Source: Franzmannia pantelleriensis (GTDB lineage: Bacteria; Pseudomonadota; Gammaproteobacteria; Pseudomonadales; Halomonadaceae). Taken from it: DNA of 64,000 nucleotides. The notes under the pieces are model-generated. The model had not been told where the DNA came from. It did not search any database and saw nothing but the letters and a program-made list of their open reading frames with translations. Shown piece after piece: positions 8,649-24,714 of the stretch. The DNA is taken from NCBI RefSeq assembly GCF_900102875.1, contig NZ_FNGH01000003.1, forward strand, positions 186,001-250,000, given 5' to 3'. A program made the position numbers and the translations under genes. How positions within the stretch are numbered: position 1 is the stretch's first letter; each line of letters starts with the position of its first letter.

Positions 8649-10679
8649 ATGAGCGACTCGACGAGCCCACCGGTGCAGATGCCGGGCGGCAACGCCATCC
8701 AGCCGCGTGCAATACTGTGGTTGATTACCATCGTGGCGGTAGGGCTGTCCCTGTTCCAGCTCTACTCGGCGGGGATCCAGCCGCTGGGGCTGTTCTACCA
8801 GCGCGGGATTCACCTAGCGCTGATCATGACGCTGGCCTTCCTGATCTTTCCGGTCTTCGGCCCCCACCGCAAGCGTGGGGCCATGGGTTGGCTGATCGAC
8901 ATGATATTCCTGGCCGGGGCTGCGGTAACCGGGGGCTACCTGGTGTTTTTCCTCGACGAGATCATCTCGCGGGCCGGGTTCTGGAACGAGACCGATATCC
9001 TGATCGCCTGTATTGCCACCGTGACCGTCCTCGAGGCCAGCCGTCGTGCGGTGGGCTTTGGGATGACACTGATCGGCGTGCTGGCCATCGTCTATGCCTT
9101 CGCCGGGCCGCGTGGCGAGCTGCCATGGTTAGGCCAATGGTTGCCGGGGATTCTCGAACACCGTGGCTATAACCTGGATCGCGTCGCCGGCCAGCTGTAC
9201 CTGGGGCAGGAGGGCATCTTCGGCCTGCCACTGGGCGTGGCGGCGACCTACATCTTCATCTTCGTGCTGTTTGGCGCCTTTCTCGAAAGCACCGGGGCCG
9301 GCAAGTTCTTCATCGACATGGCCTATGCGGCCACCGGTCGCCAGCGCGGCGGGCCTGCCAAGGCCGCGGTCATCGCCTCGGCGGGCATGGGCTCGATCTC
9401 CGGTAGCGCCATCGCCAACGTGGTAACCACCGGTGCCTTCACCATCCCGCTGATGAAGCGCCTCGGCTACAAGCCGCACCAGGCCGGCGGCATCGAGGCT
9501 GCGGCGTCTACCGGTGGCCAGATCATGCCGCCGCTGATGGGTGCCGGCGCCTTCCTAATCGCCGAGTACACCAATACCCCGTATCTTGACGTGGTCAAGG
9601 TCAGCATCCTGCCGGCGATCATGTACTTCGCCACCGTCTATCTGTTCGTGCATATCATCGCCCTCAAGCAGGGCATGCAGGGCATGGCACGCAGCGAGCT
9701 GCCCAAGATGCGCGACGTGATGCGTGACGGCTGGCACTTCCTGCTGCCGTTGGGCGTATTGGTATGGCTGCTGGTGATGAACCTCTCGCCGATGCGGGTG
9801 GGCTTCTACGCGGTGGTCACCATGGTCGCCGTGGCGGTGCTGCGCTATGCGATCTGGTTCCTTTTCGTGGCCCCCCAGCAGGGCCAGAAGGTGACCTTCG
9901 AGAGCATCAAGCGGGTGGTGATCGCTGGCTTTCTCAAGCTGGTCGAGGGCCTCGAGCTCGGCGCGCGCAATGCGGTGGCGGTGTCCATGGCATGTGCCGT
10001 GGCCGGCATCATCGTTGGTGTGGTTGGCCTGACCGGGCTGGGCCTCAAGTTCTCGTCGATGATGATGGCGTTCTCCGGCGGCAACCTGGTGCTGGCGCTG
10101 GTGATGGTGCTGCTGGCCAGCCTGATCCTGGGCATGGGCCTGCCGGTCACCGCCAGCTACATCGTGCTGATCGTGCTGGTCGGCCCGGCGTTGACCGCCG
10201 AGTTTGGCGTGCCGCTGCTGATCGCTCACCTGGTGGTGTTCTGGTACTCCCAGGATTCCAACGTCACGCCACCCATCGCCCTGGCCGGCTTTGCCGGGGC
10301 GGCGATCGCCGGCTCCAAGCCGATGGAAACCGGCTTCCAGGCCTGGAAGTTTGCCAAGGGGCTCTACCTGATCCCGCTGTTCATGGTCTTCAATCCGGAG
10401 ATCATCGTTGGTGGCCCGGTACCGGTGGTGATCTGGAACGGGGTGATCGCGATCTTCGCGCTATGCGCCTTCGCCGCGGCGCTGGAGGGCTATCTGTTTA
10501 CGCGCATGTCGCTGCTGCCGCGGCTGGCCATCGTGCCGTCGATCGTGGCGGTGTTCTACCCCAACCTGATGGCCGAGATTGCCGGGGTGGTGGTGATGGC
10601 ACTGGCGATCGGCGGCAACTGGGTGGCCAGCCGCCGTGAGGCGGCATTGACTGTTCAAGGTGATCAGCGTCGCGCATAG
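8649..10679 (+). CDS. TRAP transporter permease, fused small and large subunits
   Basis: This 676-residue inner-membrane protein joins a four-helix DctQ-like region (about residues 20-130) to a DctM-like region (about 140-640), as is usual for TAXI-type TRAP systems. Family motifs include GSISGSAIANVVTTGAFTIP, EAAASTGGQIMPPLMGAGAF and GLPVTASYIVL. It uses ion gradients, commonly sodium, to import substrate delivered by the TAXI receptor two genes upstream. A ribosome binding site (GAGGAA) precedes the ATG. Confidence 0.93.
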   Translation: MSDSTSPPVQMPGGNAIQPRAILWLITIVAVGLSLFQLYSAGIQPLGLFYQRGIHLALIMTLAFLIFPVFGPHRKRGAMGWLIDMIFLAGAAVTGGYLVFFLDEIISRAGFWNETDILIACIATVTVLEASRRAVGFGMTLIGVLAIVYAFAGPRGELPWLGQWLPGILEHRGYNLDRVAGQLYLGQEGIFGLPLGVAATYIFIFVLFGAFLESTGAGKFFIDMAYAATGRQRGGPAKAAVIASAGMGSISGSAIANVVTTGAFTIPLMKRLGYKPHQAGGIEAAASTGGQIMPPLMGAGAFLIAEYTNTPYLDVVKVSILPAIMYFATVYLFVHIIALKQGMQGMARSELPKMRDVMRDGWHFLLPLGVLVWLLVMNLSPMRVGFYAVVTMVAVAVLRYAIWFLFVAPQQGQKVTFESIKRVVIAGFLKLVEGLELGARNAVAVSMACAVAGIIVGVVGLTGLGLKFSSMMMAFSGGNLVLALVMVLLASLILGMGLPVTASYIVLIVLVGPALTAEFGVPLLIAHLVVFWYSQDSNVTPPIALAGFAGAAIAGSKPMETGFQAWKFAKGLYLIPLFMVFNPEIIVGGPVPVVIWNGVIAIFALCAFAAALEGYLFTRMSLLPRLAIVPSIVAVFYPNLMAEIAGVVVMALAIGGNWVASRREAALTVQGDQRRA

Positions 10680-16717: not shown

Positions 16718-16731
16718 TTGACATGGATCAA
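16718..16731. promoter_or_regulatory. FNR/Anr-like box
   Basis: TTGAC-ATGG-ATCAA matches the CRP/FNR-family consensus TTGAT-N4-ATCAA with one change. It is centred about 80 bases upstream of the start codon of the flavocytochrome gene and about 90 bases from phoX on the other side, a plausible distance for activation of the former. Oxygen- or nitric-oxide-dependent control is inferred. Confidence 0.5.
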
Positions 16732-16803
16732 GTCACGCCGGGTCTGCCCTTGCGCCACATCGCATCTCGTCGACACTGAAGGTCATGCTGACGAGGAGTG
16801 CCT

Positions 16804-18096
16804 ATGCCGTTGCGTCTCTACCGCGGCGATCTGCTGCTGATCGCCGTACTGCTACTGCCGCTGGCGATTGCCGCGCCGCGACTGGGTGGACCGCCGGGAG
16901 AGGCGGCGGCACTGCTTGGTTGGGTAGGGCGCGTCGGCGGTATCCTGGGGCTTGCCATGCTGCTGGTGACCGCGGCCTTGAGCATTCGGCTGCCGGGATT
17001 CGACCGCTGGTTCGGCGGACTCGACCGGCTCTGGTGGTTGCACCGCCTGCTTGGCTTTGGCGCCTTTATTCTGATCATGCTGCACGTCCTGGCCCTCGGC
17101 CTGGCGCGGGTGCCGGCCGGCCTCGAGGTGGCGGTACTGACGCTGTTCCCGCCGCTGTCGCAGCTGGCATTGTGGAGCGGCTGGCTGGCCTGGCTGGCGA
17201 TGGTGATCTTCCTGGCGCCGACCTTCCAGTTCTTCGGCCGGCTCGACTACCAGCGCTGGAAGCGCCTGCATCTGCTGTCGGCCGCCGCCTTGTTGCTGGC
17301 GCTGGGGCATGCGCTGCCGCTGGCGGGGGAGACCTGGCCGTGGTGGCTGCTCGGTGCGCTGGGTATGGCGGCCATGGTATGGCGCAAGCTGCTGTCGCCG
17401 TCGCTGGCTCGCCACCCTTACCGGGTGGAGAGTGTCGCGCCGCTGGCCCGAGGTGTGGTGGAAATTGCGCTGCGCCCGGAGGGCCGCGGGCTCCGCTATC
17501 GCCCCGGCCAGTTCGTCTACCTTACCCCGCTCGACGAGTCGCTGACGGCGGGACGCGGCGAGGAACACCCCTACACCATCGCCTCGGCCCCGGACGACCC
17601 TTTACTGAGGCTCGGCATCAAGGACCTCGGCGATGCCAGCCATGCCCTGCAGACCGTCAGTGTGGGCAGTCGGGCGATGCTCGAAGGGCCTTACGGCGAC
17701 TTCTTCGCCGTGGACTATGCTCAGCGAGACGCGCTATGGCTCGGCGGCGGCATCGGCATCACACCATTCGTCAGCGCAGCCAGGGGAATGGCTGCTGAAG
17801 ATGAAGGACGTCATGCCCAGCTGTTCTACCTGGCCAACGGCCCCGACCGTGCCTACTACCTCGATGAGCTCACTCGCTGTGCCGAGGACGTCGAGCGCTT
17901 GACGGTGACCGCCCACTTCTACCGTGAACAAGGCCCGCTCAGCGAGGCCTTCCTGCGACACCACTGCCCGGACTACGTCGACCGCGAGATCTACCTGTGC
18001 GGCCCGCCGGGCATGATCAGCCACCTGCGTGACCTGCTCGCCGCCCAGGGCGTGCCGGCATTGCGCATCCACTGCGAGGTCTTCGACTTCCTATGA
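16804..18096 (+). CDS. Ferric-reductase-like transmembrane flavocytochrome (NOX/FRE type)
   Basis: This 430-residue protein combines a six-helix heme-binding membrane domain (about residues 8-195) with a cytosolic ferredoxin-reductase module. The four likely heme ligands are His80 and His94 in one pair of helix positions and His156 and His169 in the next, with the 13-14 residue spacing of two stacked b hemes. FAD binding is shown by YRPGQFVYL and HPYTIASAP, NAD(P)H binding by LGGGIGITPF and YLCGPPGM. It should move electrons from cytosolic NAD(P)H across the membrane. The ATG is chosen because GAGGAG lies five bases upstream; the in-frame GTG six bases earlier overlaps that site. It overlaps the next gene by four bases. 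Confidence 0.85.
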   Translation: MPLRLYRGDLLLIAVLLLPLAIAAPRLGGPPGEAAALLGWVGRVGGILGLAMLLVTAALSIRLPGFDRWFGGLDRLWWLHRLLGFGAFILIMLHVLALGLARVPAGLEVAVLTLFPPLSQLALWSGWLAWLAMVIFLAPTFQFFGRLDYQRWKRLHLLSAAALLLALGHALPLAGETWPWWLLGALGMAAMVWRKLLSPSLARHPYRVESVAPLARGVVEIALRPEGRGLRYRPGQFVYLTPLDESLTAGRGEEHPYTIASAPDDPLLRLGIKDLGDASHALQTVSVGSRAMLEGPYGDFFAVDYAQRDALWLGGGIGITPFVSAARGMAAEDEGRHAQLFYLANGPDRAYYLDELTRCAEDVERLTVTAHFYREQGPLSEAFLRHHCPDYVDREIYLCGPPGMISHLRDLLAAQGVPALRIHCEVFDFL

Positions 18097-18938
18097 ACAA
18101 GATTGCCTATAGCGCATTCATCGCCTTCCTGGCCAGTATCGGCACCTTGGTGTCGGTGCAGGCGCTCTCCTCGGACGAGGCCGACGATAGCAGTGAAGCG
18201 CGCGATATCACCCTCGATGAGCTGGCCGAACATGCCAGCGCCGAGAGCTGTTGGAAAGCCATCCACGGTGGCGTCTACGACATCACGGATTACATCCCCG
18301 ATCACCCCACCGAAGAGGAGGTGATCCTCGAATGGTGCGGACGAGAATCCAGCGAGGCGTGGGACAACAAGCGCCCCGGGCGGCCGCATAGCCCGGCCGC
18401 TGAGCGCCAACTGGAGGACTATCGCATCGGTAGGCTGGTCGACGACCAGGGCGAACCGCTGGAACGCGCCGAGGCCGCCGAGCCGCCCAGCCAGGCGGAA
18501 GATCAGCCGATGGAGCAAGAAGCGGCGGACACCGCGCCGTCACCCGCTGAGGACCTGCGCTTGCATAGGGCCATGCTGGGCCAGCCTATGGATGGCCACT
18601 ACCGCGGCGTGTTCACCGATCGCGGCGAGATTCAGGTCAATATCACCTTCGATCTGCGCGATGGCCACCTGACCGAGGTGAATTTCCGCCACCTCGCCTA
18701 CCGCGGCGTCGACTACCTGACGCTGGAGGAGGACGAAGATCTGTATCCGGTGATGGTGCAGCATCGACGCATCACCGAATGGCTGGAGGGCGAGCCCTTG
18801 ACCTCGATCTTCGCTCTTTACGAGCCCGAGCGCGTGGTCGAAGAGGTAGACGGTTTCAGCGGCGCCACCCTGCGCGGCGCCAAGGTGATTTCGGCGATGC
18901 GCGACGGCCTCAACCGCGGGGTATACAGCTGGCCCTAG
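18093..18938 (+). CDS. Exported cytochrome b5-like / FMN-binding domain protein
   Basis: The 281-residue protein has an N-terminal signal or anchor segment (residues 4-24), a cytochrome b5-like domain (about 38-117) and an FMN-binding domain (about 165-275), joined by an acidic, proline-rich linker. Likely axial heme ligands are His71 in DHPTEEE and His99 in PHSPAA, followed by the family ending LEDYRIGRL. The C-terminal motif DGFSGAT (Thr259) is the site to which ApbE attaches FMN covalently in related domains. The start overlaps the flavocytochrome stop (ATGA), so the two are coupled and the pair probably works as a transmembrane electron relay. No apbE is in the window. The terminal acceptor is unknown. 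Confidence 0.8.
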   Translation: MNKIAYSAFIAFLASIGTLVSVQALSSDEADDSSEARDITLDELAEHASAESCWKAIHGGVYDITDYIPDHPTEEEVILEWCGRESSEAWDNKRPGRPHSPAAERQLEDYRIGRLVDDQGEPLERAEAAEPPSQAEDQPMEQEAADTAPSPAEDLRLHRAMLGQPMDGHYRGVFTDRGEIQVNITFDLRDGHLTEVNFRHLAYRGVDYLTLEEDEDLYPVMVQHRRITEWLEGEPLTSIFALYEPERVVEEVDGFSGATLRGAKVISAMRDGLNRGVYSWP

Positions 18939-18953: not shown

Positions 18954-19151
18954 CTAGGCTTTGTACGAAAAGTCGGCGAGCGAAGGTCAGGGCTAGGCCC
19001 GTTCCCGACGGGCCAACGCACTTCCCACATCCATGTGGGTCGCAAAGCAAAAATCGGCGAAAAAGCGGAGTTTACGGGGTGTAAATGAGCATTTTGAGCC
19101 GATTTTTAACGCCGCATGGCCGAGCGCAGGCAGTTTTCGTACAAAGCCTAG
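18954..19151. repeat. Inverted-repeat-bounded element, family 2, long copy
   Basis: An 18-base perfect inverted repeat, CTAGGCTTTGTACGAAAA at the left and its complement at 19134-19151, encloses a set of further hairpins: GGCCCG/CGGGCC (18996-19014), CCCACAT/ATGTGGG (19024-19039) and AAAAATCGGC/GCCGATTTTT (19049-19107). The ends recur in a short copy at 24663-24714. The last bases supply the stop codon of the TraX-like gene. It could be a MITE-like non-autonomous transposon or a structured intergenic element; no transposase is recognisable inside. It accounts for nearly the whole gap between the two flanking genes. Confidence 0.8.
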
Positions 19152-24662: not shown

Positions 24663-24714
24663 TAGGCTTTGTACGAAAAGTCGGCGAGCGCGGACATTTT
24701 TCGTACAGAGCCTA
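24663..24714. repeat. Inverted-repeat element, family 2, short copy
   Basis: TAGGCTTTGTACGAAAA at the left end and TTTTCGTACAGAGCCTA at the right pair with one mismatch. The left end continues GTCGGCGAGCG exactly as in the long copy at 18954, but the middle is missing, leaving 52 bases. It lies between the TRAP receptor gene and the ligase gene and could act as a hairpin terminator there. Confidence 0.8.

Follow-up and report, generated by a model that had tools for sequence, protein, structure and literature searches.

A two-gene unit in the window (the whole 64 kb stretch of DNA analyzed here) encodes a NOX/FRE-type transmembrane flavocytochrome b and a cytochrome b5 protein that probably work together as a low-oxygen, quinone-independent exporter of NAD(P)H electrons across the membrane, with an exchangeable last carrier. 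The NOX subunit and the b5 domain, not the FMN domain that follows b5 in the window, are the conserved core of the system, a point beyond what the first-pass annotation of this DNA could see. The genome that holds the unit (contig C21) is 4.4 Mb in size and has Halomonas and Billgrantia as its closest named relatives. The coordinates of the first-pass annotation were all correct (Table 1), as was its proposal that the genes are translationally coupled: the start codon of gene 2 lies inside the stop of gene 1 in an ATGA overlap at 18093. A ribosome site, GAGGAG, stands just 5' of the gene 1 ATG.

Table 1. Features of the two-gene unit (window positions) and of selected neighborhoods in relatives (locus:positions)
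Feature	Position	Strand	Detail
FNR/ANR-type box TTGACATGGATCAA	16718..16731	.	TTGAC-ATGG-ATCAA, 72 nt before NOX start codon
Gene 1, NOX/FRE-type transmembrane flavocytochrome b	16804..18096	+	430 aa; ATG 16804, stop 18096
Gene 2, exported/anchored cytochrome b5 + FMN-binding protein	18093..18938	+	281 aa; ATG 18093
N-terminal hydrophobic helix of gene 2 protein, residues 5-24, signal or anchor	18105..18164	+	motif AF.AF..S..TL conserved, ten families
Cytochrome b5 domain, residues 39-115	18207..18437	+	axial ligands H71/H99, disulfide pair C53-C82
Divergent FMN_bind domain, residues 151-281	18543..18935	+	predicted FMN attachment at T259 in DGFSGAT
P-type ATPases beside pair	L039:3958-6690, L060:3843-6545, L041:9212-11572, L048:7613-9898
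EB_dh + DUF2231-like example	L021:4553-6681		one of 11 Halomonas-group loci

Gene 1 had been described from the window alone as a membrane flavocytochrome with four spaced histidines and FAD and NAD sites, and Pfam domains, fold and conservation all bear this out. The protein matches Ferric_reduct (1.4e-13), FAD_binding_8 (3.8e-8) and NAD_binding_1 (3.2e-10), all above the Pfam thresholds. Its best solved relative is Streptococcus pneumoniae SpNOX (8qt6), both by sequence (3e-22) and by predicted fold (Foldseek E 1.6e-22, TM-score 0.77/0.83). Six transmembrane helices and two hemes b are predicted. Across 20 aligned NOX sequences the four histidines are invariant, with spacings of X13 (H80-H94) and X12 (H156-H169), as are H255-P256 and T258 of the FAD site (H255-P-x-T), G315-G-I-G with much of the GGGIGITPF region, and C399-G-P. 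In the NOX model the histidine pairs fall on helices 3 and 5 (residues 73-101 and 149-173). The subunit thus has the TM3/TM5 histidine pairs for two hemes b and the fused FAD and NAD(P)H domains that are features of the NOX family. It shares with SpNOX the six helices, the bis-heme histidines on helices 3 and 5, the FAD and NAD(P)H domains and the fold (Hajjar et al. 2017, PMC5676040; PDB 8QT6).

The gene 2 protein contains a b5 domain with two axial histidines, as had been proposed. The Cyt-b5 Pfam match is 1.4e-15, above the cut-off, and H71, H99, C53 and C82 are invariant across the b5 family alignment. The closest structure is cytochrome b558 of Ectothiorhodospira vacuolata (1CXY, E 1.4e-24), with which the domain shares the b5 fold, the cysteine pair and the spacing before the second histidine; both cysteines and both histidines line up. 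With the fold and both ligands in place, heme binding is predicted. The E. vacuolata protein has reportedly been characterized on its own, as a soluble protein some 90 residues long, and is not known to have a NOX partner or an FMN domain. In the AlphaFold model of the gene 2 protein the mean pLDDT is 62 over the b5 part and about 80 over the FMN domain, and because the b5 part is poor the model was used for the FMN domain only.

The earlier description of this protein as exported stands in part: export is supported, but the protein may stay anchored, its N-terminal helix being nearly as conserved as b5. Mean pairwise identity in the gene 2 family, covering ten families of bacteria, is 0.45 in the helix, 0.54 in the b5 domain and 0.19 in the linker. 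The helix is more conserved than is usual for a disposable signal peptide and reads as a likely membrane anchor that would contact the NOX subunit.

The C-terminal part of the protein had been read as an FMN domain bearing the ApbE target SGAT. The residues D253-G-F-S-G-A-T259 are an exact instance of the published flavinylation motif D-x-x-[ST]-G-A-[ST] (PMC12052999), and the motif is present in 16 of 17 aligned FMN-type sequences. The FMN_bind Pfam match (0.0069) is below the gathering score; matches at E<=0.01 were obtained for 10 of 17 family members, the best E in relatives being 8.9e-4. An hhalign comparison of the family profile with bona fide FMN_bind domains, NqrC among them, gave an alignment through the DG.SGAT core (E 6.9e-5, probability 63). 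In genome G185 a multidomain protein combines domains 44-49% identical to the window FMN domain with classical FMN_bind in one chain. A PDB profile search using the FMN domain gave no significant match. The flavinylated SaFMN3 domain (8p2a) appears among the fold matches at a Z of 6.6, which is not distinctive; the fold-match list was rejected as an identification of the domain because IscU and lipoyl-ligase folds score equal Z, so that the structural list alone cannot identify it.

An exported 495-aa protein with four FMN_bind-like domains is encoded about 67 kb from the G185 NOX-b5 pair (L043:6107-7594). A search of a plasmid collection returned one weak match, from Fusobacterium and to the FMN domain only: an exported 162-aa relative in Fusobacterium vincentii (L064:5878-6366), in which EKGGAT replaces DxxSGAT and which is perhaps non-flavinylated.

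ApbE is encoded in 10 of 10 FMN-type genomes tested; in the window genome the apbE genes are on contigs C31 and C17, away from the gene pair. Its presence is weak evidence, because NqrC (L050) also needs ApbE. Two genomes with b5 (G656 and G416) have neither ApbE nor MtrB, the G656 contig stopping just past b5.

A search for the gene pair across genomes, as the first-pass annotation had suggested, found that NOX and b5 recur as an invariant core in ten gammaproteobacterial families. Of the 27 named Halomonas-group loci, 26 have NOX immediately before b5, and the same order holds in other families. The one exception is an orphan b5 gene (L034:1-581) with 203 bases upstream and no NOX in them. 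What follows b5 is variable. An FMN tail is present as a single copy in 18 of the 27 Halomonas-group loci and absent from eight (L032-L039), L040 being cut by a contig end and excluded from this count. In another family (L042, L044 and L045) b5 is followed by FMN domains that belong to a different FMN_bind type and number from one to four, and further families have b5 alone. The pair is uncommon: with the window genome counted, matches were found in 8 of 294 genomes sampled from the order and in 7 of 369 from the class, two of these seven (G653 and G387) being other b5 proteins.

The genes beside the window pair encode PhoX and TraX. In the Halomonas group, neighboring PhoX, TraX, TRAP transporter and purE/purK genes represent local synteny only. 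Downstream of the unit, at window positions 18957-19148, is a hairpin of about 192 bases with AGGCTTTGTACGAAAA ends and a folding z-score of -7.3; a 50-base mini copy lies at 24664-24713, there are four exact arms in the genome, and the element looks MITE-like. P-type ATPase genes adjoin the pair in four separate contexts (Table 1), two being Ca-like and two Cu-type. Near the copper ATPase of G094, genes for a Met-rich repeat protein and a small unassigned protein flank the pair (L041:5729-6358 and 8801-9199).

In six relatives (L047, L048, L052, L059, L060 and L061) the b5-only form of the pair adjoins genes for an MtrB/PioB porin and for MtrA, whose CXXCH motifs number exactly ten. These genomes span four families and two orders. 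The L047 decaheme cytochrome matches chain A of PDB 6R2Q, which we take to be the Shewanella MtrABC structure, at 3.8e-60. On one strand the gene order is NOX-b5-mtrA-mtrB in L047 and mtrA-mtrB-NOX-b5 in L048; in L052, L060 and L061 the pair and mtrAB are convergent, and in L059 they are two genes apart. Such recurring adjacency in differing arrangements points to function more than to coincidence or mere descent. The MtrAB-linked stretches read showed no additional multiheme cytochrome. In the NOX tree, a 100/100 branch divides the MtrAB-linked forms from the FMN-linked ones; the "b5 only" labels of L040 and L053 in this tree are unreliable (the contigs end in or just behind b5), and the placement of L054 and L055, whose branches are long, is unsure. 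MtrB/PioB is present in the six MtrAB-linked relatives and in G094, and absent from the window genome and its four congeners. As none of the tested Halomonas genomes encodes MtrB, the Halomonas acceptor cannot be deduced from the MtrAB case.

The FNR-type box noted upstream of the unit is the sole exact match to TTGAYNNNNATCAA in the 64 kb window, where 0.08 would be expected, and it is kept in relatives. Of 40 NOX upstream regions, 17 contain a match to TTGATNNNNATCAA of at least 9/10, compared with 0.9% of 200-base background windows, and 27 contain one of at least 8/10, compared with 7.4%; the upstream regions are related sequences, and the box was seen separately in three families. L052, L059 and L060 have FNR boxes before NOX-b5 and separately before mtrAB (the latter scoring 9-10/10), and in L048 and L039 a box heads the operon. 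The search for FNR boxes was negative at L047, L041, L054, L055 and L061. An Fnr that scores above the NCBIfam cut-off is encoded in the window genome, and FNR control of the gene pair is likely on this evidence.

The pair might instead be a dedicated donor to one periplasmic reductase (for methionine sulfoxide, an EB_dh-type heme protein or another), in the manner of MsrPQ, with the FMN domain docking there. MsrQ is indeed a known relative (PMC8238504), and at 11 Halomonas-group loci genes for EB_dh (PF09459, 1.9e-51) and a DUF2231-like membrane protein diverge from NOX over the FNR-box promoter. However, EB_dh is absent beside the window pair, where PhoX is found instead, and beside the non-Halomonas loci read. 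The first-pass annotation had suggested looking for linked reductases, but no general neighboring reductase gene is conserved across the Halomonas-group loci; no reductase is linked across families, whereas MtrAB is. The occurrence in relatives of the b5-only form beside MtrA/MtrB under FNR boxes favors electron export over one dedicated reductase, and we consider the latter unlikely.

Assimilatory ferric reduction, giving Fe(II) for uptake, would suit the Ferric_reduct domain of gene 1, and iron transporters do occur in some MsrQ-like flavinylation clusters (PMC8238504). We regard this as very unlikely, since no iron transporter or TonB receptor was recognized among the neighbors read, the box looked for and present in the promoter is of the FNR type, and the MtrAB linkage favors respiratory or overflow export. 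Least probable of the alternatives is a superoxide-producing NOX with the b5-FMN protein as accessory subunit: SpNOX is the nearest solved relative in both sequence and fold, but an enzyme that reduces O2 directly would hardly be expected to have an invariant b5 partner coupled to it in translation, the FNR box implies expression without oxygen, and the MtrAB linkage also argues against it. SpNOX itself reduces O2 directly and is not known to have a coupled b5 or FMN partner.

The preferred reading, an exporter of NAD(P)H electrons, is consistent with the protein families, the structures and the relatives, and retains the transmembrane relay that had been proposed at the outset. Cytosolic NAD(P)H, probably NADH rather than NADPH, would reduce the FAD of the NOX-type subunit, and electrons would then cross the membrane by way of two hemes b held by H80/H94/H156/H169. 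At the outer face a membrane-tethered b5, its heme held by H71 and H99, would accept them and pass them to the last carrier. In the Halomonas group this carrier would be FMN on T259, attached by ApbE to a domain fused to b5; in other families it would be the decaheme/porin conduit MtrA/MtrB. The quinone pool would be bypassed, and NAD(P)+ would be regenerated by discharge to a periplasmic or extracellular acceptor. The relay itself is well supported by protein anatomy, with a putative direction and order of transfer, and a role in anaerobic electron export is supported by the MtrAB and FNR evidence from relatives.

A comparison with described systems places the pair among several partial likenesses. 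MsrPQ resembles it in that a PF01794 heme membrane protein hands electrons to a periplasmic partner, but no MsrP gene lies beside the pair and the second gene encodes a b5-FMN protein. To our knowledge MsrQ itself has no fused FAD/NAD domain. The pair also resembles the "MsrQ-like" clusters, in which PF01794 proteins, often with NAD domains, occur with FMN-binding proteins (Meheust et al. 2021, eLife, PMC8238504). Here too the PF01794 membrane cytochrome, which in those clusters often has a PF00175 NAD domain, is encoded beside an extracytosolic protein predicted to bind FMN. The systems differ in that an exported b5 is the invariant partner in the present family, apbE lies outside the cluster (its presence within it being typical of those systems but not obligatory), and the FMN domain has diverged and is missing from part of the family. 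The same authors proposed that flavinylated and cytochrome modules are interchangeable (PMC8238504).

The adjacency of six relatives to MtrA and MtrB homologues relates the pair to MtrCAB, PioAB and MtoAB. The inner-membrane partners named for MtrCAB, which are CymA, NetBCD and MtoC, are quinone-linked (Baker et al. 2022, PMC8805035), whereas a NOX-b5 input would start at NAD(P)H; the window genome also differs in having no MtrB. The b5 component goes unmentioned in the main text of PMC8238504. Literature searches on b5 with ferric reductase and FMN, or on b5 with MtrB, likewise found no description of the pair, of its b5 component or of a NOX-fed MtrAB, in agreement with the first-pass annotation; subscription journals and supplements were outside their scope, and an earlier mention is possible.

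More tentatively, NOX-b5 may be a stand-alone, quinone-independent input module of anaerobic electron export that directly couples cytosolic NAD(P)H to the outer carrier present in each lineage, whether ApbE-attached FMN tails of one to several domains or the outer-membrane conduit MtrAB. If this is true, porin-cytochrome conduits would have a second way in, NOX-b5, in addition to quinol dehydrogenases such as CymA. Known pathways of the MtrAB type take their electrons from quinol. An input of the NOX type would allow NAD(P)H to be discharged across the envelope with neither quinone nor proton pump, and this altered energetic logic would be relevant to anaerobic survival and to bioelectrochemical engineering. 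The family would also offer a natural comparison, in two small genes, of how flavin and multiheme carriers swap behind one donor.
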